A model generated the notes under the pieces. That model was not told the DNA's origin, made no database searches, and was given only the letters and a program-made list of their open reading frames with translations. A program made the translations under genes and the position numbers. A DNA stretch of 64,000 nucleotides from Strigamia acuminata (lineage: Eukaryota; Arthropoda; Chilopoda; Geophilomorpha; Linotaeniidae): NCBI GenBank assembly GCA_949358305.1, contig OX442315.1, positions 5,481,875-5,545,874 on the forward strand, written 5' to 3'. This document shows positions 1-57,400 of this stretch, piece after piece. Within the stretch, counting starts at the first letter, position 1. The number at the start of each line of letters is the position of its first letter.

Positions 1-253
1 GGGTTAAATTATTGTCACATGACCTGGCTTCAGCTCTCCTTCTAGGAATGCAGCTGAAGCCAATTATCGGATTAGTGGTGCTCCAATAGGAGCGTTTTTG
101 TATATATCTTTTTGAAGACAATAAAGTTTAACCCCAGTGAGTGTACAAAATTCATGGTGGAAGCAAGCTGCAGATTTATTTCAAAACATACAGTTAAATT
201 ACAAAGAAGCCAGAGACTTTAGAAAGACCAACTAAAAGCGATTGGAATCTACA
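1..253 (+). repeat. 5' LTR of BEL/Pao element (partial, 3' end only)
   Basis: This matches 5927-6179 except for two bases and ends in CTACA just before the primer-binding site. It contains an AATAAA signal near 120. The upstream part, equivalent to 5566-5926, lies outside the window. Confidence 0.9.
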
Positions 254-256
254 TTT

Positions 257-274
257 TGGTGCCGAAACCCGGGA
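257..274 (+). promoter_or_regulatory. Primer-binding site, tRNA-Phe type
   Basis: TGGTGCCGAAACCCGGGA lies three bases after the LTR end. Its reverse complement, including the CCA, matches the 3' end of animal tRNA-Phe as I know it. This would prime minus-strand cDNA synthesis. Confidence 0.75.
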
Positions 275-298
275 GTACCCCAAACTGCAAGTAAAAAA

Positions 299-11303: not shown

Positions 11304-14300
11304 TTATTTTGAAAACATCTTATCGTTAGTGATGAGGCACACAGTTTGCAATAAATCTAGGAATGAAAGAACTGACATTCCAAGAAAAAATCCTAAAATT
11401 GACCCAATATCACAGATGCATTTTTCAAGTGGCATTACAAATTTTTGTTTAAATATCTCATTTATGTTGCTCGTAAACTGCAGATTAGTTACAATTATGT
11501 CATTGAACTGGTACGATTGAATATATTCGCTAAGCGCAGTGTACACTGTCTCATTACACATGTGATGACATTTGCAAACGTGATTGACATCGGTGTTCGA
11601 ATAAACGTTTAAATACGATTTTCTTGCCGCCTTAGCCGAAACCGATGTGTTGCACACGGGTAAAGATGATGGACCGAAGAATGGTAATCTGTTCAGTAAA
11701 AATGACAATTAATTAAAATTTATTCAAGCGGTTATTATAAATTAATTCACCTGCATTTGGCGTTTTCTTTCCCCAACTTATTTGCGAGGCAATCAGTTTC
11801 ACATTTCTCAAATTGATCCTTTGACGTGCATGGGTTTATTGGCGAATATTTCCTCAGAATCTGCAGTATCATTTACATGAGAGTCAATTTTTAATTATTG
11901 TTTTGTAAATACCACTCACTGTTTGCTTGAAAAATCTTATTGTCAGCAATGAGTTGTGGGGTTGGAATGCCAAGAGATTGTGATTAATTCTTTTGCCTGT
12001 GTGCGTTAAAAATATCTGAAAATAATCATTAAATTATTATAAGGTAAATAAATAAAAATATTTTGGTACTAGCTGTAAATTATTTTAGTAATGAGTTTAT
12101 TGTTGTTTATTTACTTTATATTAACATTATTAGGCCTAAAATTAGACTTAATACTGCTAAATAACAACTTGAATTAGAAAATCATCTGCGTAGAATGGGA
12201 TGCGCTGATGCGACGTACGAATTTAGCATCAAGATGCCTGTAGTACTTGTAGGTGCAACCAGGGGCAAATTATAGCATAGGGGTCCGGGTCAGGGTCCCT
12301 CAAAAAATGCAATTCAGGCCAAAAAAAATTATTTTAGACCAATAAAATTCATTTTTAGGTCAAAAAAGTTTAATTTTAGGCTGAAAAATCTAATTTTAGG
12401 CCGAAAAATCTAACTTTAGGTCAAAAAATCTAATTTTAGGTCAAAAAAATCTAATTTTAGGTCAAAAAAATCTAATTTTAGGTCAAAAAAATCTAATTTT
12501 AGGCCAAAGAATTAATAATTAGACCAAAAAATTCAGTTTTAGCCAAAAACATTTACGGGTTTAATTTATGCTAAAAGGAGTCTGGGAAAAAAATTTGTCT
12601 ATGACCCCAAAACAGCTTAATCCGGTCCTGCGTGCAACGTGCAAAGTGGACTTATACTTTGGATTGAGAGTTGCATTGCAATCCCTGCGACTGATAGGCT
12701 ACATACACAGCAGTGTCCTTTACAGTGTATTTGATGGGCTCTGAAAGATACAATTTAGTTATTTTTATTCCAATATTACAAACTAAAGTATTCAAAATAT
12801 ACAAAGCACCTGATTCAAAGTGTACGCAGTTTCCAAAAGCTGTCGACAAATAAGTCCTATTCGCAAATTTGTAAATTACATTTTTCATCAGGTTTAAAAT
12901 TGCGTCCATCACCCCCTTAGCAAAGAAAAAACGAAAAAACAGTTATATTTTTGAAAATCACCCTTGAAATTAATATCTTAAACTAGGTTCAGTCTCACTT
13001 CTGCGTCTTCAAAGTTCTCCATTTCACCACTTTCCTCCCACAAAGTGTCAGCACTGGCGTTATAGTCTGACGGTTCGTCGAGTAATTCCAAAATATCGAC
13101 ATCTTCCACACAAATATCATCCAGCCGTTTCTTCTCTTTGATTTTCTTTTTTTCCGTATAAATCTCTTGGGATTCGGCGCAAATGACAAAAGGTGGAATT
13201 TGAATATATACTTCCTGCACAAGTTCAATAGTCTCAAATGTCGAATACGCTCTGAATGTCACGATTTGTTCGTAAATAAAATACAGGCACACACAAGACA
13301 TGACTAGGAAAAACATCCGCTTGAAACTGACGATCAAATTGAATTGCTGGTACATTTTCATTTCTCGATTGATTATTTTCTCGGCAGTGTGATTAACTAT
13401 GGTTTCAAACCGATTCTTCTTTTTCAAACAGAGTACGAGCCGTTTCTTGAGCATCCTCACGATGTGAATAGTTATATCGATCATCGACAAACAAGACACT
13501 CCCAAGTAAAACGACAGAGAACCTCCAATGTCACACATGAAAGCGATAAAGTCGTAGAAATAGTATTCCGTGAAACTACGAATCCAGTTGCTGAACGAGT
13601 AGATTTCGATCGATTTATCTTGTTTGTCGCGGAAGAAATAGTGCGAAGTGACCATTGTTTTTTCGCATTCTCTCGGACAGTGGCAATCGGTGTGCACGTT
13701 TACTTGTGTGGTTATGTCGTTTAGTACTCCGAGGTATTCGCAGGTTTCTTGGTTGGCAATACAGTTGTTTTCGTGTTTTTGAGGCAGGAATGGAAATCTT
13801 AAAATAAATTCATGTGTTGCAGAAAAGCTTAATTTTTCTTGTTTCAAACTTACTGGCAGGTAATGTTTTTGACAGCAACTTCTTTCATGTAACACATTCC
13901 TTCGCAGTGTTCCACTTCGGTTACAGAAACGCACGGTGCCAATTTTCGATTCATAAATTTGTACTGTACGAGATAATTTCAACGTTATTTAAATGTTACC
14001 AAAACGTTTTTAGATCTATCGAATAAGTTGCCACGAACCACTTTTATAAAACGTGTTTGAAAGACGCCTGGAAACGATTTGGCTGTTTTAACTAAATGTT
14101 TGGGGACTGCTGGGCCACCCAAGGGTGACCCGCGTCACTGCCACACACCGCCCAGTGGCCCTTAAGTCATCCCTCCTTCGGAGTATTATGACCCAATGAC
14201 TTAAACTCGTCAAACCATTTTCTTACCTTTTTAAATGTATATGTAACCACATTGGCCAAAAATATGTGTCCTAGGTGAAAGGGAGGTAAAATCAGGGCAA

Positions 14301-18964: not shown

Positions 18965-20332
18965 TCAACCCTCTTTCTCTCTCTCTTTACGCTGCAACCT
19001 TTTGAAGAAAGAGGAGTTTCGTACGATGCTTTGCGAGCCTCTGCACGCTCTAATCTGGGAACCCACAATCGAAACTATCTTAAATGGCGCTGGATCATAC
19101 GGGGAGGTTAGTTTATTCGTTTTCCTTCTCTTAACCAAAACCAAATCCCCCACTGTCAGTCCGTGCTCCTTAACTTGTCTCTTTTCATCCGCCAGTCTCT
19201 TCATTTCCGTCTTTTTCTCTTCATCCCTTTTTCTAACTGACTTATCCTCTTGTAATGCGAACATTTGTGGTAGCCTCGTCTTTATTGGTCGGCTAAATAA
19301 CAGCTCTGCCGGCGGAACACCCGTTGTCGTGTGTGGCGTTGCCCTATAATTGAGTAAGAATTCACAGATTTCTTCATGCCATCTCTTACCCTCCGTCACG
19401 GCCGTCAGGATCGCTTTATTTAAAGTCCTCATGAAGCGTTCAGCTTCGCCGTTAGCCTCCGGCCACAACGGCGTCACCCGCTGATGCCGTATTCCCATGT
19501 CTTTCACGAAATCGGCAAACTCGCCTGATGCAAATGGCGGGCCGTTATCTGACTTTATGACTTCTGGGATGCCCAGTTCAGAAAAACGCTTCTTCATTAA
19601 ATTGATAACTCCCCGGGCCCCAGTTGACGCGACTCCATCAACAAATGGAAATCGAGAATATTCATCGATTAATACGCACAAAATCTTCCCATCTGGGAAC
19701 GGACCCAGGAAATCCACGGCGAGTCGCTGCCAGGGCCTCTCTGGAAGCTCCATCATAACCAATGGCGTCCTCGTTCGTATCGGCACGCAAGCCTGGCACG
19801 GCAGGCATCCCGCCACCGCTCGTTCGACTCGCGCATCTAACCCAGGGAACCACACTTTTTGTCGTAACAACACCTTCGTTTTCACGATCCCCTGGTGTCC
19901 ACGGTGTGCCAGGGTTATCACCGCATCTCTTAGTTGTTCCGGGATGACGATCCGGTCCCCACGCAAAATGATTCCGTCCCCCGAACTCGTCAACTCGTCC
20001 TGTAAAAGTCTAAAAGGTTTTAAACCCTCCTGTTTCCACAACTTATCTCGTTCGCCTCCCGTGCACTCTAACGCCGTCCGTAATAGTTGCAATTCCTTGT
20101 CCTCAGCCGTCGCCCTCGCGATCTGCGCCCGCGTCAATGAACTCGGCACGCGCGTTCTCACGACGAAATTAATGTAACGCTCAACCGTTCGTGTCATTGT
20201 TGCTCCGCATCCCTTCTCCTCTCCCGAATGCCGCGACATATAGTCGCTTGGATTCGAAATCCCTTTGGTGTATTTAACTTCAAACACGTACTGTTGTATG
20301 CGCAAGCAAAGGCGCTCTATTCTCGCAGACGG
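18965..20332 (-). pseudogene. RNase H end and integrase of Mag-like element
   Basis: Same frame as the preceding segment. The end of RNase H is followed by the integrase HHCC finger (HRGHQGIVKTK...CLPC, about 19760-19880) and by a D,D,E core (AVDFLGPFPDG, KSDNGPPF, PEANGEAERFM). A basic C-terminal domain (VGDLVLVKRRK) closes the segment. It ends at TGA 18965-18967, after which the frame is open again. Confidence 0.85.
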
Positions 20333-22225
20333 TCACGACTTCCGATTTCCGAAGATGCTAATGAGAGGCTTATGGTCTGTAAAAAGCACAAAGGTTATTC
20401 CATATAAATACAAATAGAAGTGTTCAATGGCCCACACGGCCGCTAAAGTCTCTTGTTCGATTTGAGAATATCTTTTCTCAACTTCTGTTAATGTGCGACT
20501 TGCGTAAGCCACGACCCGCGGTTCCATATCTGCTCCCTTAATCTGGGCTAAAATTGCTCCCAGCCCGTTCGGGCCCGCATCGACTGTCAAATGGATCTCG
20601 GCCATTGGGTCGTAGTACGCTAATACGCTCTTATTTCCTAATTGTCCTTTAATTGCCGCCCACGCCGTCTGTTGATCTTTTCCCCAAACAAACGCTGCGT
20701 TGGTCTTCTTTGCCAAATCTCGCAATGGCTTCAGCATATCGGCCATATTTCTGACGAATCGTGCACAGTAGATGACCATTCCTAACAAACTTTTCACCTC
20801 CGCAACTGATTTCGGGGGCTCCATTCTCTCCACCGCCTCCACCTTACGCGGATCTATAGAGATACCACTCGCCGAAAATACGTGGTCGAAGAAAACAATT
20901 CTATCACAGCGCAACTCACACTTTTCCTCGTTTAATGTTAGGCCTTTTTCCTCCAACCGTCTCAACACTGCATGCATTGCCACGTCATGGGCCTCTCCCG
21001 TCTTTCCTACAACGAAAATGTCATCCACAATATTTATACAATTGGGCAAACCTTTGATCACTTGTCGAATCGTATCCTGGAACAGCTCCGACGCTGAATT
21101 TACGCCAAACAGCAGTCGCTTGAATCGAAATAGTCCTACATGAGTCGCGAATACTGTGTATTTACGCGACTCACCATCAAGTTCCACCTGGTTAAAGCCG
21201 TGGTTCAGATCCAATTTTGAAAATAGAACCGCTCCTTCCGCTACCGCAATCACATCCTCCAGTCTTGGTGACGTATGTCTCACCCGTTTGGTGGCTCTAT
21301 TAACCTCCCGCGCATCCACGCACAGGCGAATGGCGTCGGGGTCAGGGTCCCTTGGCTTATCCACACAATGGATCGGCGACACCCATGGCGTCGGGCCCAT
21401 CCCCTCATCAATTCGCTCAATCACGTCCATTTGTAGCAATCTCTCCAACTCCTTCTCCACCTTTTTTCTTAAATGGAACGGAATAGGGCGATATCTCTGC
21501 GCCACCGGCGCCACGTTTTCATCCACGTGCAGATGTATTTGGTAGTCCTTCAGCTTACCTACGCCCCGAAAGAGCTTCGGATATTGCTTCTTAATCTCCT
21601 CTTCTAACGTCGTTTGTTGGACGCTATTCACTACTTTCACTATATCTAGTCTCTTAGCTGTTTCATAATTTAATAATGAGTCCCCCGGGCGGTCAACAAC
21701 ATAAGCCGTCGTCGTAACACTTTTCCCTTCCCATCGTAATACCAACTCCACCCGCCCCAACAGCGGCAGAGGCTCCGACGACCCGTATGTAAACGGTTTG
21801 GCCCGACTCACTTGTAATGTCGGTTTGAATGTCATATTCATGAAAATCTCTCTCCCCAAAATGTTTACCGACGTCCCCGAATCGACGATGAACTTCACCT
21901 TGTTGCTTTCCTTTCCCACCGTCAACCGCACTTCGGGCATGTTATTCTTCCTCGTGTTTCCATCCATACATAGTCCAATCGTGAATAAATCCCCTTCATC
22001 ATCATCCCACTCTCTCTCACGTTCATAATTCACTATATTCACCTTCTGTTTGCCTTCCGCCGACTCCGTCCGTTTCGCGCGACAAAACCGCACAAAATGC
22101 CCCGTTTTCCCGCATCCTCTACACGCAACGCCCTTCGCCGGGCAGTCCTGTGGGTTCGGGTGTGGCCAATTTCTTCCGCAATTAAAGCAACGTCTTCCTG
22201 CCGTTCCTATCGATCCACTTCGAGA
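20333..22225 (-). pseudogene. Zinc knuckles, protease, RT and RNase H of Mag-like element
   Basis: Same frame as Gag. Two Cys/His knuckles (CFNCGRNWPHPNPQDC and CRGCGKTGHFVRFC) lie at 22084-22190. The protease DSGTS is near 21880. RT follows, with the SKLDLNHGFNQVELD and NIVDDIFV motifs (near 21030), and then RNase H from about 20600 (TVDAGPNGLGA). A TGA at 20333-20335 cuts the end of RNase H. The next codons continue the domain in frame. Confidence 0.85.
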
Positions 22226-36400: not shown

Positions 36401-39400
36401 CGTGTCCAGTGGGATAACGTGCGCGATCGAGCCCATCTCATACCCGGACGCTGGAGTCGGGAGAGCCTTCGACCAATTAGCATTGATCGTCGGGTCCATA
36501 TCGGGAGTGATATGATTTTAACTTCAAGTGAAAATACTTCTTACATATTTTAACTTTTTGAAAGGGAAAATCATTGTTTCAATTAATATTCTTAATAAAA
36601 TATTAATTAAAATACCGCAAAATTTAAAGTGTTAAAAGTTTCAAATGAAAAGATTAACTTTCTGGGTGGAATGAATTGTGTTAACAGTGACGTTTGTCAC
36701 ATGATCACTAATTCCTTTTCTTGAAACACCTGCTGTTTTCCTTAGTTCCATGTAAGTCCTTACATTCCTGACACGCGATTTCCATGCTTTGTGTATTTAA
36801 ACTTTTCCCAAAGGATAAGTTAAAAAATTTCACAAACTAAATATTAAGTTGCTAGATTCTAGATTCTTCTTCAGCTTTGTTCTCAAGAAAACTATCTTTA
36901 TAAATTACGGTATATCATTTATTTAGAGAAAATTTGCCGTTTTTTTGTTTCTTCCAATATTTCGGTTAGAATTATTAAAAAAAAACTCTCAAATTCCTTA
37001 GTTTGATTTACAGTAAAAAAACAAACAAAAAAAAAATTTATTTCTAAATTTTCGAGAAAAAATTATCGTTTTGTTTCTTTTAGTATTTCTGTTGAAATAC
37101 TAAAATAAAGCTTTATTTATTCAATTTTATCAATCAAATTCCTGATTAATAAAAATCGTTGTTTATTTCTTAAAATGTTTCTTGGGAAACACTGTAGAAA
37201 ATTGGAGGTTTGGTGAATGAAAAGTGACCTTTGTCATTCATCCCCCTTTGCTAGGATTCCAGCTGATGTTCTATTGTTTTAAGAATACTCCACATTCTTG
37301 AACGGTGGTGGATGAAAAGTGACTTTTGTCATTCATCCCCCTTTGCTAGGATTCCAGCCGTTTTTCTGTTTCCCTTAATATTTCGGTTAAAATATCAAAT
37401 GGAAATATTGTTAAAATTTCTCTGTTTAATCTTTTTTAAGAAATAAACTTTTGAAATTTAACTCCAAATCTTCTGTTTTTTCACTAGAGAAATAACGCTT
37501 GAAGTTATAACTTGGTTGAATGTTTTAGATTAATATCTCTATCGAAATATGGGATATTAAATAAAACCACTGCAAAGTTTCTAGGTTAAGTTTTTCAAAA
37601 AAAAGTAACTTTCAAATTCTTACATCTTGGTTACATATTAATCCAATTCTTGATTAATACATAAACGGTTAATGAATTCTTTTAATGTTTTTAACGAAAC
37701 ATTAAGTGAGAATGTTGTATAATTTCCTACCGGAAGTTCTAATTTTCAACAGAGAAAATAAAACACACGGTAAAAATCCGACTATTGCCAATTTTGATTA
37801 ATCAAAATCTTGATCAACAAATATCATTGTTAGCTTCTTAAAATATTTCTTGCGAATTATTTAAATAGAACGTGTGTGAAAACTCTTAGTTTAATTTCTC
37901 CTAGGAAAAATAAACTTTAAAAATTTTATCTCTGATGATGTTGAAAATTGGGTCAAATCATTGTTAGAAAGTTGGGATACTTTCTTAATATGTTCGAGTG
38001 TTTGTGTGTTTTGGCATGAAGCATTAGATTAATTGCACATGCTTTCATGCATTATGGTAGATTATTGTTTATGTTGCTTTATATCTTAATGGATATAATT
38101 GTTAAATATCCAGTTCATATTGTTAGTTTATCCCTGATTTGTTTAGTTGTGACATACTGTATTGTAAATATACAACCAGTATGATTAATTGTTTATTATT
38201 GTCATTTATGTTGGCCTGGTTTATTTATCTAAGTTATATCCTTTGATTATTTTCAAAGAGGACAAATCACTATTGTTGTTGTTGTTTAAATGATTTGTTC
38301 TTGCTTTATTATCATTTCATGTAATCTCAGACCCATGTGGTCTAGTTCCCACTTGGTTCCTAGTTTTGAGTCATTAAAGATGGCAGCCACCTGTGTGGCA
38401 TGTTTTGCTAAGTTTTCACAAGTTGTCAGGGCTCACCTCATTGCAGTAAATTCTCAACATGGTAGCAGAGGATGGTTGTGGTGAGTCCTGGCACTGAAAG
38501 TGACCTCAAATTCGGATTCTACGTCGTTTTCTACCTCTGGGAGGTCAAAGGCGAACGTCAAGGACGAGCGGCAGCGACGTACGGGAATCGCGAGGCATTT
38601 TCACGGCATTTTCCATTAGCGCGCGGCAGTGAAGCCGCCGACGAGGGGCAGCAACCCGAAGCAAATTCGGCGCCGTTTCGTGTGTAATTGCGGCCATTAT
38701 TCGTGTAAAACGAAGGAAGGACGGCCAGAAAACATTGGAAACACTCTATGACATTGTATGTAGGTAATAAAAAGAATTACTTACCTTTGTTTGTGTTTTT
38801 CCATTTGCGGAGATCGTTTTTCGTGTTTACGGACATCGCCGGAACGCCGGGCGGGAGCGCGAAGCAAATTCGCGGCATAGTGGTTCGTCGAGTCGACGTC
38901 GCGAAGCAGAGCAGCCCGCAAAGGGGTCGGCGGAACCGAAATTCATCGATTTTCGATAGTTTTTGCATGTTTTTCGATGTGGAATGACAGCGTTTGGATA
39001 AATACCAAGGAAGATAAGCCTATTTCGTTAAAATATTAGGTTTAAGCAGTTGGAAACTGCCGGAATAAGTGGATTTGTTCTTCATAAACGATATCGCTTT
39101 TTCGGAAATCCAAGATGGCGGCGCCCAGTGCGATACGAGTTTGAGGCCGCGTTTGGACTGTTTTCGAGTCGACGAGTGGATCCCAGCGCTGGAAATTACA
39201 ACGTGGGACCACATAAGAGCCTTAGGAAGCGATTAGGATCGGTTTAGAATCGATTTGGAGCATTTTTCGACGAAAACGAAGCGTTTTTCGGAGGTGGCGA
39301 TCGAGATTGGATTCCCGCAACGTTTTGAAGACGTCGCTCATCGTAATTGAGCATTTCCACATTGAATAACGTCGGGTAGACGTTTTAAGGAGTTGCGGCT

Positions 39401-42400
39401 AACGTCTGGACGACGTTACCGAATTTTTGGCGAACATTTCGGGACGATTTCGAGTTTTTTTGGACGCGTTTGGTGCGACGGGCACAAACGCATCACGGAT
39501 TGGCCCGTAACGGGTATCTGTGCATCGTGGGACAGGTTAAGTCTTGTGCCAGGTGCACAAGTGAATTGCAACAGATTCCAGCGTTTGGAACGGCGTTTCA
39601 ACGGCGTCAACGCGGGATTTGCGACGCAAAAATCCCGCAAATTTCAACGACAACGTGCCAGCATTGTTTTGTTTATTTGGGATTGTCGTGAAACTCTGTT
39701 ATAGTTATTTAAGGTTTTGTTTTGGGGTCCCTTTGTTTGTTCCTTGCCCTTTACTCGGTCGAGTAGCAAGGTCCTATTTCCTCACAGGCTATTTCTGGCC
39801 ACCAAGTGTCCCGCGGGCCCAGGTGCACCGGTCGGAACTTGGGAAATACTGTGGTGGAGTTTATCATCTCACTTAGTGAGATTAGCCCAAGGGAAGTTGT
39901 GCATATTCTCCTTCATTTTGGTTGGGGAAAATTGTTTTTGTGAATTTTCAAAGTGAAAAGTGCTTTTAGTGAAAGTGCCGCAACTAATTAGTGAAGAAAA
40001 TGTGTTTTGTGCCATCACTAAATTTATTAGTGAGTTTGGTGTGGTTGTGTGGCGCGAATTTTGTGCACACAGTACTTTGTGCAGCAAGAAGGTCTTCAAC
40101 AGACAATGGGATTGCCTGCAGCAAACAAACAATGGACGACACACACGAGGCGCAATTGAAGAAGGGAATGCACGGACAGATTGTCTTTAACGGACACACA
40201 GTGCCTAACGCACTTAATGGACAATTGGAAAAGAAAATTGATTCTTTTGAGAAAGAATATTTGAAATTGGATTCTGATATTGACAAAATTGTAATGTTAC
40301 TAACACATTTAGTACATAAGAGCGCACTAACAGATAACATAGATACTGTTATAAAGGGCATTGCTAATTTAATCTTAGCAATTTGTAAGATGCGTATGGA
40401 TGAAATGAATGGGCATTGGAATAGTGAAGTGCAGGGCACAACCAATGATATACGGGGCCTTAATGTGATTAATTCAAACAGGGTTTCGAAAATCACACAG
40501 GATTGTTCAAAAATCTCGCCTGCCAACATGGAAAGCAAGGGAGATAACCAATGTAAAATTGGTAACTTGAAATATTCGAACCGGGTTCGGAATAAAAAGA
40601 ATAAAAAGAACGAGGGGGACAGGAAGTTGAATACTCCGATTAAGGTTAATCAAATTAACATTCTAGATTCTTGTAGACAGAATCAACAAAGGGTTTTTGT
40701 AAGAACCGAAGAAAAGAATCCCCCATCTTTAGAAGAGAACAGGAAACTGAAGAAATTGGATAAGGGATGTTTAAATAGTAAAGAGTCAGACATTACAACA
40801 GTAATTAAACATATTGATCCCTTAGACTCTGGTGTTAAGAACCAGAAAAAGAATTCCAGGCATCACAAAAGACAAAAGGAATTTAAGAAACAGGACAGGG
40901 TCCTACCTTTTCAGTTATGGCATACCCGGTTGGTGTATTTAGACAAGGAAAGCATTTATGCTATGAATGGATCAAAATATGTGTTTGGTGTCCAATTAGA
41001 AGACACGGGGACCACCCCTATAATAGGGGACTTTACAAAGAAGAATGTTTTCCCAACACAGATGAATAAAGCAGATGGGTCATTAGATTTAATACATCTC
41101 AGTGTTTGGGAGGTCCCACATGCAATAGGACAGAAATACATTATCTTTGTTGACGACTATTCAGAATATGTCTGGTTTAGACCATTGAAGAAAAATGTTT
41201 TGGATGAATTTCGAGATTGGCTGTCTGAAATTGGGCACACAACTGTAGAAGTTGTTAGAAGGATAAGGTTAGGTCCCGGAGTAGATGTGCTACTAGATGA
41301 GTTAATTGAATTCACTGAATCCCGGGGTATTGAAATCGATAAAGAGGAATTTGATAATTTAGATGTCAATTATATCTTTAAAAGGGCAAACGTAGATATT
41401 ATTAAAGGTGTCGAAACTTTAATTGTAGAGAATAAGTTTCCTGATACCTTGTGGATAGAACTTGCAAACACAATGGTTTATTTACGGAATAGAGCCCCCA
41501 GGATTAATTTAAATTGGAAATCCCCATACAACATATTGTATGACCGATGTGTGTCGGTACGGCACCTTAGATGTTTGGGGTCTAGAGTTAAGGTTTTTCA
41601 TTTTAAAAATGGGAAGAGGTGTTCCTGGCTGGCCGCTCTAGTTGGGTATTCCAGTTTTAATAGGAAATACCGGGTCTGGGACCCAAGAGAAAACAGGATT
41701 TTTCAAACAAATAGTTTGAAAGTGGATGAGTGGAGTTATTGGCACGAGGGGGAAGTGGAACCCTTTATGGAATTTGTTAACACAGATCAAAATGTAGGGA
41801 ATAAGAACACTGAAATTCCATCCGAGGATATAGTGCCAATATCCCCTCAGCTGGAAGTGCCTTCCCCATTGGAAATGGAGGTTGAAATTCCCCCATTGTT
41901 GACTTTTGGAGAAGTTGACATTAATGAGCGTACGACTATTGGGAATGAGGGGGAAGAATTGAGGCATTTTAAGGTGGAATTCGAACCCCAATCTGCAAAA
42001 GGTTTCAAACAATCTGATCCTTCAACGACAGAGGCCGATTATAAAGTGGAAACGGTCCGTGAACATGACCCGCAGGGGAAGACTGTTTTCGATGGGTTAG
42101 AAGCCGAGCGTCGTACCGACACGGATGAGTTTGCCACAAGTAATGAAGAGGTTTATGATGACCTCACGTGTAAACAGAAATCTTCCTCTTTAGTAGAGGA
42201 TGAAATTTCCCCATCATCAAGCGAGTGTAAAATGATTGAGACAGAGGGGGAGTTTAAAAGGACTAAAAGACGCAAAAAGAAACGTAAAGGAAACAAGAGT
42301 GTAGATGTGTTGACAACAGACACAGCCGGATGTCAAACTACAATTTTCGAGTCGATCTCAGATGGTGGTATAGACATAATGACCGAAAAGAATTTGATCA

Positions 42401-45400
42401 ATGAGGGGGAAGATCGAGATGGGTGTTACACTCATAATGAGAAATTTGATTTCTTATTGTCGAATTTGGGAAAACGGACTGGGCAGGTCACGATACATGG
42501 CTTAGACTTTGCATGGGATGAGAACTACTTATATTACAAATAGTTAGTTGTAAGAAGAATAATACTTTTAACTTGAATGTACTTTGGTTTGACTTTTACA
42601 ACGAGAAACCATTATCCCTGGCATATGCCTTTACTCCTCCGTTGATTGTTTGACTTAGGTGAGCGTGGTTGTAACACACTGGCAAACACTCGAACAGAGG
42701 GGGAATGTTAGAAAGTTGGGATACTTTCTTAATATGTTCGAGTGTTTGTGTGTTTTGGCATGAAGCATTAGATTAATTGCACATGCTTTCATGCATTATG
42801 GTAGATTATTGTTTATGTTGCTTTATATCTTAATGGATATAATTGTTAAATATCCAGTTCATATTGTTAGTTTATCCCTGATTTGTTTAGTTGTGACATA
42901 CTGTATTGTAAATATACAACCAGTATGATTAATTGTTTATTATTGTCATTTATGTTGGCCTGGTTTATTTATCTAAGTTATATCCTTTGATTATTTTCAA
43001 AGAGGACAAATCACTATTGTTGTTGTTGTTTAAATGATTTGTTCTTGCTTTATTATCATTTCATGTAATCTCAGACCCATGTGGTCTAGTTCCCACTTGG
43101 TTCCTAGTTTTGAGTCATTAAAGATGGCAGCCACCTGTGTGGCATGTTTTGCTAAGTTTTCACAAGTTGTCAGGGCTCACCTCATTGCAGTAAATTCTCA
43201 ACAATCATCACAACCAAAAATTTTCCCACTCGTTCACGATCACTAACTTATTAGCGTCCAAACTTTCAAGGTTAGGATTAGTGTTAACTAAATTCCTTTT
43301 CACCTTGATTTTCTTGCTTCAAATAAATCGCGTCGGTTTGCCATAATAATTTTTATTCAAAATTAAAGGGCACAAAGTAACTTCAGAAAATCGAAAAATC
43401 GGCGATAGATTCGGTGTGAGATTACGTACCGTTTAGTACGTAACCGACAAAATCGAACAACAACAAAAAATTGGCGATAGATTCAGTGTTAACTTGTGTA
43501 CGGGTAAGTACACAAAAAACAACAGAAAACTAAGCACCAAAACACTCAAAAATAGATTGGAAAAATAGGGCTTTTCTCGAATTTACACTAGCGTGGATAA
43601 ACAATCACGCTTAAACTAACAATACAAAGAAAGAAACAGTACTCTATTTTAAAACTCGCGTGGTTTAGACACGCTTAAAACTACACACGATAATAAATCG
43701 AAAAAATAACATACACTTTACTTTAAACTAGGCAGAAAAGTGGCGTGTTCATGGAAATACGCTTAATTTTAAACTATGTACATAAATGAAGTTTTACTTA
43801 TCGGAAACTGTTAGTTGAAATGGTCACGGAATGGTCTGGTCACGGAATGGTCTGGTCACGGTCACAATGGCACATTTGGTGAGTTGTTTTTAGTTTTTAA
43901 ATTAATATTTCTGTCGAAATACTAAGTAAAAACATTTCAACGTTTGTCGAATTCTTTAAAATATTTCGAAAAATATAAAAAAAGAATTTTGTAGAAAATT
44001 CAGATTTTCCATTTCCTCAAAGGGGTAAAAGTATTTCAAACTTTTCAAAGTTGGCAAAGTTACATTTAATATTTCGAGAAATATTAAATAAACTATTTTT
44101 ACAGAAGTTCCAAATTTCTAGTTAGATTTTTGTACAAAACATAACTTAGAAAAATTTCAGCCTTTTCAAATTTTCAAATTTTGGTAAAAAATTTGCACTT
44201 TAAACTCAGAGTCCACTTTAAAATTGCAACCTATCTCGGTAGAACCTCCACGTGTGACGATGACTACCCGGGATAGGAATTAATGCTAAAAGGACAAGTG
44301 AAACTGCAGAGTGTAGTAAAGTGCAAAGAATGAAGCGTTTATGTTTCTCAAAACATAGAACATTTATTCAAGTCAAAATAACGTTAACAGTTGTGTTCAG
44401 CCTTGAAATAAGAGTGTGTAAAGTTCTTATTTCGGGCGTAAAAGGTGTCATCTGCAATCGGACTGATCGTCGTCTGCTTCGGTTGGTTCTGTGTAACTAA
44501 ATTATCCGAGAAGTGCGGTTGACTTTGCCGCATCGTCACAACTTTGGGTGACCATTGGTTTAAATATCTATTCGTAGATATTTACCAATTGGTCTATTTA
44601 TGATTACCAAAATAACCATAAATATGAGTTACTCAAAGTTAGACTTCGAAAATCATGTTGAATTTACGAATAAAACCAAACACAAAAAAACAAAGGTATG
44701 AATTGAATTATTAAATTACAAATAATCTAATAATCAAACATAACTAAACCTGTAATAATAAAATGATTATGAAAAGACCCTGTCGATTCTGTTGCACCAA
44801 AGTACAACCAGCCCAGAATTGAATCAATGGCGCTCACGTCAATCCAACACTAGGTTTGACCCTAATGTCTCGTTGGAAAAGGAATTGAGCACGGCATTTT
44901 ACTGCACGTGCCCCTACAACGGAATGTTGGCATGAAGTACGGGAAAAGGGATTGAGCACGGCATTTTACTGCACGTGCCCCTACAACGGAATGTTGGCAT
45001 GAAGTACGGAAAGGGTTTGAGCACGGAATTTAATGCACGTGCCCCTACAACGGAATGTTGGCATGTAGTCAGGTAAAGGGTTGAACACGGAATTTAATGC
45101 ACGTGTCCCTACAACGGAATGTTGGCATGAAGCGAAGCGAAGCGAAGCGTAGAATAAGGGCTCAAGTAGATATCAAACAGAAACAAAAACAAGAGCGAGC
45201 TATTTCCGGTTTACACTGGAATATATGCTCAGTAGAAACAATGAGTTGACCATTGCTCCAATAGGAACACTGGTCACTCAAAACTGTCCAATCCTAGTAA
45301 ATAGGAGGTGGATACAGGGGACACAGGCTTCTACTAGGTCTGTCCCAGGAAGTGGATACAGAGGACACATTTGCAATTAAGGCTATTGTCTTACTCTGCA

Positions 45401-48400: not shown

Positions 48401-51400
48401 TGCAAAACGGATATAGCTCGCTCTTGTTCTGTTTTTGTTTGATACTGATATTACTTGAGCACATATTATACTTCTCTGCGTTCCGACAATCCGTTGTAGA
48501 AATACTTTGTATTTAGTGTAAGTATCTAGAGTGGGTAGAAGACTCACAGACACACTGCCCGCCTCTTCATGCCAACATTCCGTTGTAGAAATGTTGTAAC
48601 TAGAGTGAGTAATTCACAGACACATTTAAGTGTAGTATCTAGAGTGGGGTACAACCCACAGACGCACTCCCTCCAGCTTCATGCCAACATTCCGTTGTAG
48701 AGTGCAGAATCTAGAGTGGAGTAAAATTCACAGACGCATTGGTAATGTAGAATCTAGAGTGGAGTATTTATATTTCACAGACGCATTATCAGAGTAATCG
48801 ACGCGGAGTAATTTCCCGGTTACTCTCCCGCCAGCCAGGACCGAGTGGAGTAATTTCCCGGCGATGGATAACCTTTCCTGCGAGATATTTCGATTCAATT
48901 CGTTATTGGTTTGACGGAACATTTAAGTCTAACTTAGATGTTGATTGCACTCGGGGCAAAAAATAGCTCGGCGCTATTTTAATATATTTTACTTATTTTC
49001 ATAGTTTTAGTTAAGTTTGTGACTCTAAAATATCATGATTAATTCCATAGAATTAATATGAATATTTATTCTCACATTGTTACATCTCGCGGTAATTATT
49101 GATTACAACAATTATCTGCGATGCGATGTGTGTGACGATACAGAAAAGTCAACCGCACCTCTCGGATATAACCCACCCAGCCTAACCATTTACACGCCTT
49201 TTAGAACCAAACCCCGGACCATTTAGAAGCCAAAGCCATTCATAGATGACATCTTTTACGTCACAGCAATAAGACCGTTACAAATTCTTATTGCATGACT
49301 GAAGCCTTCAAATGATATTATTTCAGGGCTTTTGCCAAACAACTGTATAGTTTAACTTCTCGTCATTTTAGCCACTTGTAGGCATAGTATTTATATAAGG
49401 TTCAAACCGGAATAAATGTTATATGTTTTGAGAAAACATCAGGTTTGCATATTTTACATTTTCACACAGATAGTTCACACTTTAGTTTAGCAATTGCTAT
49501 CTCCAGAAGGTAATCGTCACACGTGGAGGTTCCACCGAGATAGGTTGCATTTTATCGAAGTGAACTCTGTGATCAAAGTGTAAATTGAAAAAATGAATTT
49601 TCTTGATTATTTTATATAGATATTATAATTAGAAAATTTCCGATTTTTCTCTATAAATTTACTGTGAAATATCCATTTGCTTTCAAAAAATTCTCATTAT
49701 CTTTTGGAAATATCTGAATTCGAATTTTTGGATTATTTTGAAAAAAACTCATTATAATTCCGAATCTCTTACGAAAAATCTATTATGATTTTATTGAGTT
49801 TCCCAGAATATTCAGCTATATTCTGGAAAATTTCGAAACCTTGAATTTTGATCAAAAAACGAATTTGACTAGAAATCCTGCTGACTGAAAAATAAAAAGT
49901 TAAAGTATTTTATTTTGCTGGTTAAAAACTTGACCCAGTTTCTATTGTTCTGTTTTCAATGTTTTTGATTATTATTTTAATCTTTAACAAAGTAAAGAAT
50001 GTGACAAAGAGAACCACTCACGATGCAGCTCGGAGTAGGTCATCCAGATGTGACATTGTTGAGAATTTCGGATTAGAAATTATCAGGAATTTTTCAACAT
50101 CGCCAATCACAGCAGACTGTCTTGACAAAGGAGATTTTCCGGAAGCTAGTTTGACAACCAATATTCAGCCACACTTGCTTTTCGACAGTGCGACCATCCA
50201 GTTGTGCCTTTGTGACCAGTGCCCGTTTGGACCATTCTTGACCACGCAATAGGACAGTTTTTCCGAAGCCACTTCAGTTTCAGCAGCTAAGGTTGTATTT
50301 TTTCAAATTATTTCTTAGTTTAATATTAAGCGTGTTACATTTACGCTAGTTCAGTTAAAGTTTATTTTTTCTTTTGTACGTGTATTTCTTTGAGTATTAT
50401 GGCCCGTAGACCTGTAAGAGTTCGTGGAACACGAGGAAATCGTGGAGCACGACGACGTGGTGGTATGTGTGAAACACCAAGAGGAATTGTGGAGTCTGAT
50501 CTAGAAAGCCAGGGGGAAGAAAATGTTCCTAGAGACGTTTCCAACCCAGGTAGTTCTCGAACGGATCCACTATCAGTCCCACATGATTTAGAAGTTTACT
50601 GTCGCCATTACCAATTGGAAGTGACGCAGTTTTCCTCTTTGTGTGAAGCTCAACAATACACGGCGAATAATCATCACGAGAGAAATCGTGTAATTACTCC
50701 CGATGTAGTTGTAACCAACGAACCAAGTGTTTCTGTAGATCGAACTGGCCCTCGTTCGCCGGCCACATATCGCTACCAGCAATTGCCTGGATGGCGAATG
50801 AATGTTGCTCGTGACGACAATGGGCAGTTAAATTCTTCACTATCTGTTCAACCTTTGATTCAGTTACCAACTAGTTCTTGGCGATCGAATTCGGCCGAAA
50901 GAATGGGAAATTCCGGACAAAGAAATATTTCTGCGCCAATTTCCCGAAATTTACCAAGTGCGACGGCTGTAAATAATATTTTACCCGCTCCCACTGGGAA
51001 TTTGAATGATTCTTTCAGAGTTCCACAGCCTCGAACTAATCTGTCGGTCCAACCAAGGGGGAGAAATGAAAATTATCAAAATTTTCAATCTCACACCCAA
51101 TCTGATGGAGATTTTAGGAATTATAGAAATTCCCGCTCTCAAGGTGGACGAGCTCCGCCGAGAAATCAACGATTTCCCGGAGCTCCTGGTGATCCGCGTG
51201 ACTCCGATCCTAACTCGAGTAGTGACGAATCTCACGCTGGTGGAGGGGGAAATTATAACAATAATTTCCACCGACGTAATAATTCTCGTTCTCCACCGCC
51301 ACCTGATAGACATCAAAATTTTCAAGGAGAGCCAAATCCGCCACCCAGAGACCAAGGAAGTCGGTCTACACCCAATTCGAACTCTGCTTCTAATTTGTCG

Positions 51401-54400
51401 GACGAAAATGTAAAACAAATTATTCAGGGTTTAGTTGGTCAAATCCGAAGCCCGAGTAATCCCAGTCAGAATTTTGGAAAAGGAATCGAGATTCCTATTT
51501 TTGACGGGAAACAGACAGAGGTTGCGCGATTCCTTGAAATCGTCAAAGCTGTCGCACTCGGGAAAGGCATCCCTTTAGACGACATGGTACACACTGCTGT
51601 ACCTGGACGACTATTAGGCCATGCACAACGTTGGTTCCATAAGCAACGCCATACTTTTAACAGTTGGCGAACTTTCGAAGCCTCTTTTCTCGATTGTTTC
51701 GACCTCGTTCCACTTACAAGAGAAAGGCGACTTCTTAATGTAAAACAACGAGCCGACGAATCACTTTATAGTTTTCTTCTGCGTTATACGCAAGAACAAG
51801 GTGAAGTGCCGCCAGGTGATAAAACTGGACGTGCGCAATTATTCGACAATCTAACTCAAGAAAGTTTCACGGCGTTATGTACACAAGGAATGTATGGTAA
51901 CTTTACAGTAGATGACATTCTACAATATGTAGGAGCAAATCGCTCTAAGTTTGAAAGTTCTCAACTTGCAGCCAAATTGGAGTACGATAATCGAGAGAAT
52001 CATCCTACTCCCAAACTTCACGAAAAATCTAAGATTTTTCCATCCAAAACCTCACTACGTTTAACGCAAACACAAGATGAAGTTGAAGATGAAGACGAGT
52101 CGGAAAATGACGACTCAACTGACGATGGTTCAATGGAGCGATTATTTGCCGCCCAGTATGAAAAAACTACTGGAAAATGCTTTTTCTGTCACGAGCCTGG
52201 ACATTTTAAAAGAGAATGTCCCGCTCTTGCCAAAAAATTAGCAGGGAAATCAGACTCGTTAAATACAAATAAAAGATTTAACCACTCTGCTCCCAACCCC
52301 GAGTTTAAACGACCCAAACAAAATTGGGTTACGTCAGAAACTTTAGACTCCAAATTTACTGACTTCCAGAAAAACATGGTTGACCTGTTAATTAAGCATT
52401 TACCAGCAGCCACTGAGTCAGTCACTCCCGATGAGACAAAAAACTGATTCAGGGGGTTGTTCAAGTTGCCCAACCCCCGCCTAACGAGTTGTTTCCTCTC
52501 TCGGAATTTTCAAATGATTTATTTTTTCATAAAAAAGAAATTAAAATAAGACATAAGCCTAGTCATCTCACAGTACCTTATGTCGATGATTCGAAGAATA
52601 AACCACCATCGTTGGTCATTTCTTACGAAGCAGTGCCTGTCTGTCGGAAAGCTAGTAGTTCCACTGGTGGTGTCGATGAGAATTTAAAAATCATGACAGA
52701 CCAACTAGAAAATTTGAGTATTTTCAGTGGAAGTTGGAATGCGCCAAAGAAACCGCTTGTACCCAAAGTTTTCAAGTTAAGGAAAATTCTTAAACTTGAA
52801 AAATGGAACAAGAAAGAACGAAAAGTATTGCTTGGCAAACTTTGCAATAGCAAATTAATTAATGGTGGCAAAGATGATCCGCGTATGAATGTCCAAATTG
52901 GAGGTTTGGATTACAACGCACTAATGGACTCTGGAGCCACCCAATGTTTTATTGGAGTACAACTCCTCTCAAACACGGAAATTCCGGTGGAATTCATACA
53001 AGAATGTCCCCGGGGAATGCGTGTCTGCGCGGTCGGAATAGATCACCGACCTATCGGTCAAGTTTGTCTTTGTGTCAAATGGGCCGATAAAAGGAGAGTT
53101 ACACCTACGACCTTCATAATTCTACACAAGAATGTATGTGGGTTGATTTTGGGTCACAATTTTATGCGTAGAACGGGGATAAACCCTAATCCCCGACGAG
53201 CAGTGTTCACCTGTGATGACATGCCCGGATGGACAGCGCCATACGAGACCACTGAACTTAACTGTTGTTTAGCAAGCATTAGGACTTTGGGTCTCCAAGG
53301 TGAAGGAACTCCCACTTCACCTGATTGGGCAGAAAAACTCGTCGAAGGCTGCAACAGCTCGGCGGAAGAAAAACGGTTACTCGTAAACGTTCTTTTGCAA
53401 TTAAAAAACGTATTTCGAGATCAATTGGGCTGTACGAAGGTGGCCAAGCACAGCATCAAGTTTAAACCTGGTGCTACTTGGAAACACCAGCCATATAGAA
53501 TGTACAATCCAGCCAAGAAGGCCATTATGACGGAATTGGTCGAGGAGTTAGAGGCTGATGGGTTAATCGAACCTGCCACTGGCCCTTATATAAGTCACCC
53601 CGTCATAGTGGCTAAACCCGGCGGGAAGTATCGATTATGTATCGACTACCGCTGGTTGAATGCGATCACAGAAGTTGATGCAATTCAAATGCCAAGTATT
53701 GACCTATTAATTCACCATACTAATCAGGCCAAGTACTTTACATCCATTGATTTAACTAAAGGTTATCATCAAATGGAAATGGAGGAGGAGGATAAGAGCA
53801 AAACTGCTTTTTACACTCCAAAAGGCAAATTTCAATTCAAGAGACTGCCATTTGGTCTTTGTAATGCACCTAGCTCTTTTCAACACCTCATGACTACCGT
53901 ATTGGGTGACTCTTTATATAAACACGCTCTGGTCTACTTAGACGATATAATTATTTTTTCCGACACATGGGAAAATCATTTATTACATATTAAAGACGTA
54001 CTTGAGAAGTTAGATGCCGCAAATCTAACTATCAATAAAGACAAGTCAAAATTTGGTCGAACATCATTACGATTTTTAGGCCATTTAATTTCCGAGGGAT
54101 CTCTTCTTCCAGACCCGGACAAAGTCTCGGCTGTAAGGAATTTTCCCAAACCGACTTGTTCTAAAGACATTCAAAGATTTGTAGGACTTGCGAATTTTTT
54201 CCGAAAATTCATTCCTAACATCGCAAATATTGCTCGTCCATTGACCAATATTATGCATGATCAAGCAAAGTTTGTGTGGGATGATCCACAAACAACTGCA
54301 TTCGAAACTATCAAAGATATTTTGTGTGACAAGGACCAAGCCCTTCTCCACATGCCAGATATGAATAAGCCTTTTGTCATTTTGACAGATGCTTCTCATT

Positions 54401-57400
54401 CAGGTTTAGGTGCAGTACTCTGTCAAGACGTAGAATTATTCTGTGAAAAGAAACAGAAATTAATTATGGTCCCAAAAGCAGTCGCGTACGCCAGTCGAGT
54501 GTTACACGGGGCCGAAGTAAGGTATTCTACGCCGGAATTGGAGTGTTTGGCCGTTGTATGGGCAATCGAAAGATTTCGCCCTTATATTGAATACACGACT
54601 TTCACTCTCGAGTCCGATGCTAAGGCCCTTAGCTGGTTGATGAGTACGCCGGAACCATCGGGAAGGTTTGGTCGTTGGGCCGTCAAAATACAATGTGGCG
54701 CGTTTAAAATTATTTTTAGACGCGGTGCAATGAACCAAGTAGCGGACGCATTATCACGCGCTCCACTGTCTGCACTAGACACTCCGGATTATGATTATAT
54801 CGAACCAGAGGAGATCACCCATTTCTATCCAACTTGGAATGGAAACAGGTGTGCATCTTTACAAGTGACGGAGACTGAGCGCAAACATTTTCTCACAAAT
54901 GTTGGCCTTAGTTTGGATTTTTTCTCAGAATCATATAATCCAGTTAGATTTCATGATTCTGGAGAAAAGGGGGAGGAAGAAGGATGTACGAGAGAAAATT
55001 GCAGACATATAGATGTCCACAATTGTAATCACGAAAATGTACACACTGCGCTAACAGATATCCTAAAAGTAGTTCCGCCGACGCGAGACGAAATTATCGA
55101 AGCGCAGCTTAAAGATCCAGCATGTAGTAAAATCCTTGTTTACCTAAAAGGAGACGAAAAATTAAAAAATCGTATCACGGATAAACATTGGTTAAATGCG
55201 ATTCGTGGCTACACTCTCGACGAACCGGAAGAAAATAAAGGTGTTATGCTAATTTATTTTGCTCCGACCGATGAGGAGGAGTTAAACGACTCCGGCAACG
55301 GGTTTAAGGCGGTAATTCCACGCTCTCTCGTGAGACGTGCATTATTCGCATGCCATGGCCACCCACTTACAGGACACGCTGGCATGAGCAAAACCCTAGA
55401 TAGAGCAAAACAGATGTATTTCTGGCCTAGAATGAGCAAAGACACTCGAAACTACGTTCGCAGTTGCACTCATTGCCAACAATACAAACCTAGCCAACAC
55501 CAAAAGCATCGGGCAAGCTATACACCCCACAACATGACCAACCCATGGGAGACAATAAGCATTGACCTGATGGGACCAAAGCCAGCTGGTCGTTCACAAT
55601 TAAAATGGATTTTAGTAATCATTGATAATTGTACAAAATGGATTGAAGTCTTCCCACTAGCAACTGCATCAAGTGAATGCATTGTTAATAAGATGAGCGA
55701 AGTTTTCCACCGTTGGGGATATCCAAAAAAGATAATCTCCGACAACGGCAAACAATTCGTGTCAACAATATTTAATGATTTTTGTCGAAAAAATCACGTA
55801 GATATTGCTCACATTAGCCCATATCACGCTGCCGCTAATATTACAGAGCGGGCTAACAGGACTTTAAAAATGATGTTAGCTTTATACTCAGACATTCACT
55901 CTCACTGGCCAAAATATTTAAATTCTTTTGCCTTTGCGATGCGCACCGCTAAGTCCGAGGCAACAAATTGTTCTCCGATGATTCTTAATACAGGAAGAAT
56001 CGTTCCTTTGCCATTTGACCCGCGTATTACTAAACACGCCATCAAATTCGACAAAGAGAACCCCGAAGCTTATGTCTATAGTATTTTAGACGTAATTAGA
56101 CGTGCACACAGCGAAATGCATCGGAAAATTCAATCGAATTACGAAAAGCATGATCGACTACATAAAGACAAATATTATATTTGTCAATTTGCCAAAGGAG
56201 ATCTCGTGTGGAAAGCCACACATATTTTATCAAATAAAGATAAAGGGATTTCGGCAGGATTCGCTGAGAAACGTGATGGACCTTGGGAAATTACGGCTAT
56301 TCTCGGCGGAGGTTCCTACACGCTACGGAAGCTCTCCGACAATTCAAAAGCAAAAGCGATCAACATACAGGATTTAATGCCTTATATCCCAAGTTACCCG
56401 ATTGAGGAATGGACATTAGATCAGAAAGTCGGTACCAACGAGTCACACCCGACTCCAGATTGGATGGCAGGTCAGGTTATTAATTCTTCAGAATTAATAA
56501 ATGAACCTGTGTCCATAGAAACAAGGGATTTAGTTGAAGAGAAAGAGGAGGAAACTTCTCAGATTTCTTCTAAAGAGGACGAAACTCCTCAAAATCCGTC
56601 TAAAAAGAGGAAAAGATTTCCATCTCCCGTTCGACAGTCTAAACGTAGACCCAAGCCGAACACAAAATACGTGACCGATTTTGTACAACTCATAAATTGT
56701 TTAACACAAGTCAAGTTGGGTTAGGACACAATATATTGAAAATATTTTATTTTTTAAATAAATATTTCCAATCATATTCACGAAGGATTGTTAAATTTTA
56801 TTAATAAAAACATTTCACCAATGTAGATAAAATTTAACAAATGTTTGAGTTATTTTTACACGGCCGATTGTATTTAAATTAATCTACGTGTAAACATTTA
56901 CTTGAAACTATGTTTTCCCCCCTTGGGGTTAATAGAAACTTCGAGATGAGTAATTACAAACCAATCAAATTACTCCTCGAAACTCCCCTTAACCCCTGGT
57001 TTGAGATTATCACTCACTTGTTCGCCAAGTTTTGTACTGGACTGAAATCAAGGATTATTCTCGACTTTTCGACGCTTTAACGGATTTTCGCTGAATTTTA
57101 GTGAGTTAAAATCTAGATGATTTTGAACACTTATCGTTTATTTTACTGATTTTTTCATTTGACGAATATCAGTTCAAATTCAGAAATTATCGACACGACG
57201 CTGATTATCGAAACCATTTCGTGGCAAAATCACAAGGAACCTTCCCGCGAATTCACTACGTGATTTTCCGGTAAATATTTAAGCAATATTTTGTCAAAAT
57301 TAATAATATTTTGACATTAATTGACGACATTTATTTTGGTTAAGCGTCCATTACGGCAGACTTAGAATTTGCACGTGCCGCACAACGTCTTTATCGGCCA

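Follow-up and report, generated by a model that had tools for sequence, protein, structure and literature searches.

A family of LTR retrotransposons with an inactive integrase

We analysed a 64,000-nucleotide window of the genome of the centipede Strigamia acuminata (contig OX442315.1, positions 5,481,875 to 5,545,874), and found that the long terminal repeat (LTR) retrotransposon at 37962-43203 of the window belongs to a large and diversified family of LTR elements, Copia-derived and non-autonomous, of which it is a young copy. The open reading frame (ORF) of this family encodes an integrase without its active site, and we showed that the integrase domain is under purifying selection after the loss of that site. 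What the family keeps would be a long leader and one protein from the middle of the Copia polyprotein, an integrase minus catalysis whose fold is apparently preserved. We propose, giving this an even chance (about 0.5), that the dead integrase serves as a non-catalytic integrase subunit or adaptor that acts mainly in cis and ties its own RNA or cDNA to the machinery of a helper element.

A sequence-only reading had described the window element as recently moved, with identical LTRs, a 5-bp duplication, a primer site and a purine tract. All of this was borne out: the LTRs differ at 0 of 498 positions, and ATCAT stands on both flanks. The primer is presumably the initiator methionine tRNA, judging by the 3' end of that tRNA. 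The reported ORF length of 850 codons holds if counted from the GTG at 39991, and the first ATG at 40000 gives 847 amino acids. The reported absence of protease, reverse transcriptase (RT) and RNase H was reproduced, since a Pfam scan of the ORF at E values up to 1 gave none of these and no gag, the sole match being the SH3-like PF25597 (E 2e-7). PF25597 was also the only match above the cut-off in five family ORFs, and no gag domain was found by Pfam in any of the five; the autonomous Copia element at locus L018 has RVT_2, rve, Pol_BBD and others.

The LTR search covered the 237.5-Mb genome. It found two more copies that nearly match the window element (99.9% and 99.8% across the aligned portions, with an ORF protein 99.5% identical), as well as a sister group whose LTRs are about 80% similar and whose frames measure 863 and 862 codons. 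L009 and L010 also have 100% identical LTRs. Five copies, including that of the window, were read end to end, and each has paired TG...CA LTRs that differ by at most one base, a primer site, a polypurine tract, an open ORF and a perfect 5-bp target-site duplication (TSD). Since the TSDs are perfect and lie at different sites, and the LTRs of each pair are nearly identical, these five copies are recent, separate insertions. Their TSDs have no common sequence.

The leader search of the genome gave at least 66 matches (40 of 352 candidates scored), and the protein search at least 114 matched stretches (53 of 2672 candidates scored), many of them from multi-copy subfamilies. Among the 114 stretches listed, 101 have no internal stop and 13 have one, frameshifts between stretches not being counted, and the open frames of family matches range from 498 to 1198 codons. 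Thus, the sister copies sought after the sequence-only reading exist, with the same dead core and mostly open, and its idea of a new non-autonomous element with a non-enzymatic integrase is supported by the selection on that core; it has to be recast in that the element belongs to a diversified family and is not one odd copy. Four subfamilies were read. Three have frames of 1179, 991 and 1018 codons between stops; in the fourth (L055) the frame is shortened, apparently by an inserted L018-type Copia element, as seen from the junction sequence. The tails differ between subfamilies. Outside this genome, protein searches returned 7, 0 and 1 proteins; all of these (8/8) have the rve domain and none resembles the dead form.

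The window element has a mosaic structure. Its leader is 95% like L021 and its 3' part 95% like L012, and the part between is 77-83% like L012 and L013. This pattern hints at template switching among co-packaged RNAs. At L010 (C3:35.96 Mb), the leader of a family copy contains a nested Copia element with a 1368-codon frame, which puts the LTRs about 9.5 kb apart.

Loss of the active site

We aligned 18 family integrase domains with five autonomous Copia integrases. The family domains came from loci found by LTR or leader similarity, or were chosen among the protein-search matches for their long open frames, and openness is therefore biased in this set. L020 was aligned and kept off the residue table because its match begins inside the domain, and L010 was kept off as identical to L009 in the blocks compared. 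Usable autonomous integrases came from five of the eight loci tried (L018, L069, the Copia nested in L010, and the close relatives L024 and L043); L047, L049 and L050 gave none, and L023 only the last part.

The zinc-binding HHCC and catalytic DDE residues are present in all five autonomous integrases. In 18/18 family sequences the first zinc His is kept, the second is replaced by Tyr, both Cys are lost and both catalytic Asp residues are replaced. The catalytic Glu is retained in 14/18 members and is Lys in the other four, including the window copy, which has Ser, Gly and Lys for the three acids, Tyr for the second His and neither Cys. The loss of the second zinc His noted in the sequence-only reading therefore extends to all the family sequences read, and the loss of all three acids is true of the window copy and not of the family as a whole. 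A Gly-to-Val change beside the lost His is private to the window copy among those aligned. In the tree, the five autonomous integrases group at a support of 100 on a long branch, and internal family branches are often weakly supported. All family sequences read have thus lost two acids and the zinc site, by parsimony in a single event on the long branch between them and the autonomous integrases.

The domain is of Copia descent, as it is 33% identical to the integrase of L018 over its length and gives a profile match to 7z0h_W. AlphaFold predicted an integrase fold with an RNase H-like core, from an alignment that included ordinary Copia homologues. The basic TKRRKK stretch occurs in 9/11 family ORFs, and the remaining two stop upstream of it. 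For the N-terminal 300 residues we found no detectable counterpart in the polyproteins of L018 and L023 (best E 1.1).

Selection on the open reading frame

To estimate selection on the integrase domain, we fitted a codon model to 17 sequences (L009 being omitted additionally). The ratio of nonsynonymous to synonymous change (omega) was 0.271, with a log-likelihood of -7083 compared with -7312 at omega 1, that is, 229 units better. By the Nei-Gojobori method, 12 of 17 pairs in the integrase region, with synonymous divergence (dS) of 0.39-1.51, gave ratios of nonsynonymous divergence (dN) to dS of 0.19-0.31. The five other pairs are near-identical; two are without synonymous differences and three stand at 0.26 to 0.54. 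The tails gave ratios of 0.25-0.66 where dS exceeds 0.2, although they align poorly. The comparison of the window element with L012 gave a dS of 0.82 in the integrase region and 0.012 in the tail, a contrast that identifies these elements as mosaics.

A passive passenger, whose ORF would be open merely through youth and recombination with coding relatives and would have no function, could account for some of these data. Between the window element and L009 there are four amino-acid differences and no synonymous one (four blocks compared), the window copy carries its private Gly-to-Val change, and mosaic copies exist. However, omega is 0.27 between subfamilies that have diverged synonymously, most of the listed stretches are stop-free (101 of 114), and only 1/500 simulated ORFs remained open at 5% neutral change. 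We give this explanation hardly any credence. Neutral decay among the copies, which would have undone the sequence-only reading, is likewise rejected by this omega and by the 12 pairs with dS of at least 0.39. Selection on the ORFs of single copies makes most sense if each protein benefits the RNA from which it is translated.

The first 45 codons behave differently. In nine between-subfamily comparisons their dS was 0.07-0.26, compared with 0.26-1.0 for residues 46-250, and their dN/dS ratios were 0.40 to 0.95. This low dS suggests that the first 45 codons are probably conserved as an RNA-level signal that continues the leader. An N-terminal signal peptide was considered and dropped, since the N-terminal stretch is conserved at synonymous sites too.

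Autonomous Copia relatives as candidate helpers

At least 150 RVT_2 matches were found in the genome (150 of 2633 candidates scored). Among the loci read, the closest to the family are the L018 type and the L069/L023 type. Of the elements read that have RT and an intact triad, the nearest share 33% integrase identity with the family (L018 and L069; a 119-residue fragment of L023 has 43%) and form separate lineages. The element is thus not a fresh deletion of these, in line with the sequence-only reading, and a recent internal deletion of a helper was rejected also because no pair of window-type LTRs surrounds an RT among the loci read, the nested case aside. A full-length partner sharing the LTR, which that reading had expected, did not turn up among the loci read. 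The 10-kb LTR pair at C3:35.96 Mb, taken for such a partner, is a 5.2-kb element with the nested 1368-codon Copia. L017 and L022, considered as tandem arrays of helper and element, have family LTRs within Copia gag or pol. At L018, a Copia element lies beside a solo LTR that is broken and belongs to the subfamily of the window element; we found no 5' LTR of the Copia's own, and it was rejected as an LTR-sharing helper.

The family has several features in common with the autonomous Ty1/copia elements of this genome (L018 with L059; L069/L023), namely a homologous integrase, leader blocks, a hairpin, the primer-site core and a purine tract; the autonomous elements differ in having gag, RT and an integrase with an intact active site, whereas the family has a dead integrase alone. 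The first 12 nucleotides of the primer site were found in 12/12 family loci where they were looked for, and the same core is present in the autonomous L069 as well as in a second autonomous type, the L018-type element that lies in L055. L069 has an LTR, a primer site with these 12 nucleotides, GGTGAGT, and an open gag-to-integrase frame with DDE. Its leader matches that of the window element at 70% (237 bp) and 84% (63 bp). The CAACA LTR end is common to the family and the L069/L023 type; LTRs of that type form at least 12 pairs on one strand with a spacing of 6.4 to 6.6 kb. Five family members and both autonomous types can be aligned at their leader ends, which contain invariant blocks.

One of these conserved parts is a hairpin. 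Across 8 sequences (near-duplicates and low-scoring antisense rows omitted), 40/40 cells are paired, 3/5 pairs are changed on both sides and 0/500 shuffles scored as high, for a hairpin first spotted by eye and rows collected by a script that favours paired arms. An Rfam scan of the window gave no match at gathering scores. The shared primer-site core, the leader blocks and the covarying hairpin together make related autonomous Copia elements with an intact triad plausible helpers of the family.

A chimeric, palindromic arrangement was seen at L023:1923-3433, where a helper-type polymerase and LTR precede a leader of the family type, after which comes an LTR in inverted orientation. The leader of this chimera is 81% like that of the window element. 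Such a structure fits shared templates.

The GGTGAGT motif after the primer site, present in family elements and, at about position 580, in autonomous L069, suggests that the leader may be an intron. This bears on another possible role of the protein, that of a Rev-like factor carrying unspliced genomic RNA out of the nucleus. The donor-like GTGAGT in family members and L069, together with the conserved leader hairpin, would suit such a factor, and the Cer1 element needs an extra protein for export of its genomic RNA, according to excerpts of PMC10309623. The donor-like motif is, however, without an identified acceptor and is absent from family member L054, and we regard an export role as quite unlikely.

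The autonomous elements also bear on the origin of the ORF. L018 encodes gag, an HHCC/DDE integrase, a methyl-CpG-binding domain (MBD) and RT all in one frame. The tail of L054 is 43% identical over 58 residues to this MBD (E 1e-13, two-sequence comparison). Given this likeness, the family ORF looks like the integrase-to-MBD segment of a polyprotein, minus gag, protease and RT.

The MBD of L018 (PF01429, E 3e-10) lies between integrase and RT in L018:5945-10000 on the minus strand, and a similar stretch is present in L023. It might guide insertion of the L018 Copia to methylated DNA. The dead integrase could be a chromatin tether, attaching to LTR ends or to the chromatin of the host and directing cDNA insertion, perhaps towards methylated DNA. 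The MBD in L018 and its relic in L054, the SH3-like C-terminal domain that is the Pfam match common to all five family ORFs scanned, and the basic TKRRKK stretch would all suit a tether. Pfam, however, detects no MBD in the window ORF, and the lack of a common sequence among the TSDs of the five copies gives no sign of steering. We therefore consider tethering unlikely, though deserving of more weight than an export role.

Proposed role of the dead integrase

We favour the adaptor reading introduced above. Reverse transcription and insertion would most likely be carried out by a related autonomous Copia that shares the primer-site core, the leader structure and the CAACA end. The dead integrase would bind the RNA from which it is translated and later the cDNA, and integrase-integrase contacts would join these to the particle or intasome of the helper. 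The integrase fold may still multimerise and bind nucleic acid, and could in this way tie its own RNA or cDNA to the Gag-Pol or integrase of the helper. The basic TKRRKK tail may favour nuclear entry. More tentatively, and with rather more doubt than confidence, the family may represent a new kind of helper-dependent retroelement, with a pseudo-enzyme, selected in many subfamilies, that is both a cis adaptor for RNA and cDNA and a non-catalytic subunit of mixed intasomes.

The same mixed multimers could also serve interference, in which the dead integrase poisons or restrains the helper integrase and so lessens competition or spares the host. They could arise from an inactive integrase whose fold is intact, and many Copia copies are present in the genome. 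However, a poisoned helper would block the element itself too, and the family is still amplifying, which makes interference very unlikely in our view.

Several observations weigh against the adaptor reading. The ORF is without gag, which bears on how the protein would enter the helper particle. The LTR starts and U3 regions of the family and of the helper candidates differ, and the primer site matches that of L069 in its first 12 nucleotides only, the remainder being different. The reading of L069 covers just the first 4.2 kb, and that of L023 the part from integrase to RT. The variation in the leader hairpin stems from the two autonomous sequences only. The MBD-like stretch of L054 is not called by Pfam at E values up to 1, and the AlphaFold alignment included seven ordinary Copia polyproteins, which favour the integrase fold. 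As for selection, the codon model behind the omega estimate is free of recombination although the elements are mosaics, omega is weaker at residues 46-250 (0.47-0.75 in the nine between-subfamily comparisons), and near-identical pairs gave 1.84 (window element and L012, tail, dS 0.012), 0.54-0.82 (L055 and L015) or no estimable ratio.

Comparison with known systems

Non-autonomous LTR elements usually carry nothing or structural proteins such as Gag. Among the papers listed by searches of the open-access literature, we recognised none on an LTR element whose sole protein is an inactive integrase. The integrase of HIV-1, for comparison, is also the active enzyme; the element family studied here differs in encoding the inactive form only. 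Non-catalytic RNA binding by HIV-1 integrase, as given in excerpts of PMC7671690 and PMC9144474, is like the proposed mode in being a non-catalytic action on its own RNA.

LTR families without pol that keep an ORF are already known, and in the excerpts of the reports on Athila and Quinta the kept protein is structural or envelope-like. RLG_Quinta has no pol and one ORF (GAG and an unknown domain), and is proposed to be moved by RLG_Cereba, with which it shares the primer site and parts of the LTR (excerpts of PMC11302176). By that account, Quinta resembles the present family as a pol-less LTR element with one ORF and a proposed autonomous mover; it contributes GAG, whereas the present family has an inactive integrase and no gag. 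With respect to such shared termini, the family has 12 nucleotides of the primer site and CAACA in common with L069, and differs in the LTR start and the remaining primer site. The plant Athila elements without pol include non-autonomous lineages that recombine with one another and whose Gag and Env ORFs are under purifying selection (excerpts of PMC2410132). They are thus like the family in being non-autonomous, with selected ORFs and recombination among lineages, and unlike it in that the excerpted text describes none of their ORFs as an integrase. LARD and TRIM elements, such as PbTRIM of an ant (PMC3532108, in part), are non-autonomous with a primer site and a purine tract, as the family is, and are typically without coding sequence (PMC3286476, in part). 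The long non-coding internal region of a LARD was not found here, the family having a 2.5-kb ORF under selection.

If the integrase fold is kept after catalysis has gone, integrase would have a selectable job beyond cutting and joining DNA. A non-catalytic job of this kind, known already in retroviruses, would then exist in retrotransposons too. Since catalytic and non-catalytic integrases occur in one genome, the job could be tested in a natural setting. The family would show that pseudo-enzymes can arise within mobile elements and, if the proposal is true, the element carries a passport of its own to machinery that it borrows.

Features of the element and its surroundings

Table 1. Coordinates of the features of the retrotransposon in the window
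Feature	Position	Strand	Basis or remark
Target-site duplication ATCAT, left copy	37957..37961	+	sequence reading
5' LTR, 498 bp, TGTTAG...CAACA	37962..38459	+	identical to 3' LTR
Primer binding site TGGTAGCAGAGGATGGTT	38460..38477	+	directly 3' of 5' LTR
Long untranslated leader	38478..39999	+	conserved family-wide; 3' part can be aligned with L018 and L069 (autonomous Copia)
GGTGAGT, splice-donor-like motif	38480..38486	+	just downstream of primer site
Leader hairpin	39867..39881	+	compensatory changes, family compared with autonomous Copia
Single ORF, 847 aa from ATG	40000..42543	+	ORF reading; 850 codons counted from GTG 39991
First 45 codons, low synonymous and nonsynonymous change	40000..40134	+	dS comparisons
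Integrase-like region: zinc-domain remnant, RNase H-like core, SH3-like C-terminal domain	40879..41748	+	alignment, Pfam, AlphaFold
Tyr replacing second zinc His	40936..40938	+	18/18 family sequences
Ser replacing first catalytic Asp	41101..41103	+	18/18 family sequences
Gly replacing second catalytic Asp	41272..41274	+	Gly 17/18, Ser 1/18 in family
Lys replacing catalytic Glu	41380..41382	+	Lys 4/18, Glu 14/18 in family
Basic TKRRKK stretch, nuclear localisation signal-like	42262..42279	+	motif likeness; putative function
Polypurine tract AGAGGGGGAA	42696..42705	+	directly 5' of 3' LTR
3' LTR, 498 bp	42706..43203	+	pairs with 5' LTR
Target-site duplication ATCAT, right copy	43204..43208	+	sequence reading

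The window contains other elements. A Pao-type retrotransposon at 242-5611 (plus strand) has two frames with DUF1759, DUF1758, RVT_1, Peptidase_A17 and integrase domains, and a Gypsy-like element at 18965-22093 (minus strand) has two adjacent frames with RT, RNase H, an H2C2 zinc domain and rve. Frames of 685 codons (with a weak zinc knuckle) and 1411 codons at 50390-56724 (plus strand) probably belong to another retroelement. On the minus strand, two further finds point to an animal host, a MATH-domain frame at 7523-8176 and part of an amiloride-sensitive sodium channel at 12978-13982.

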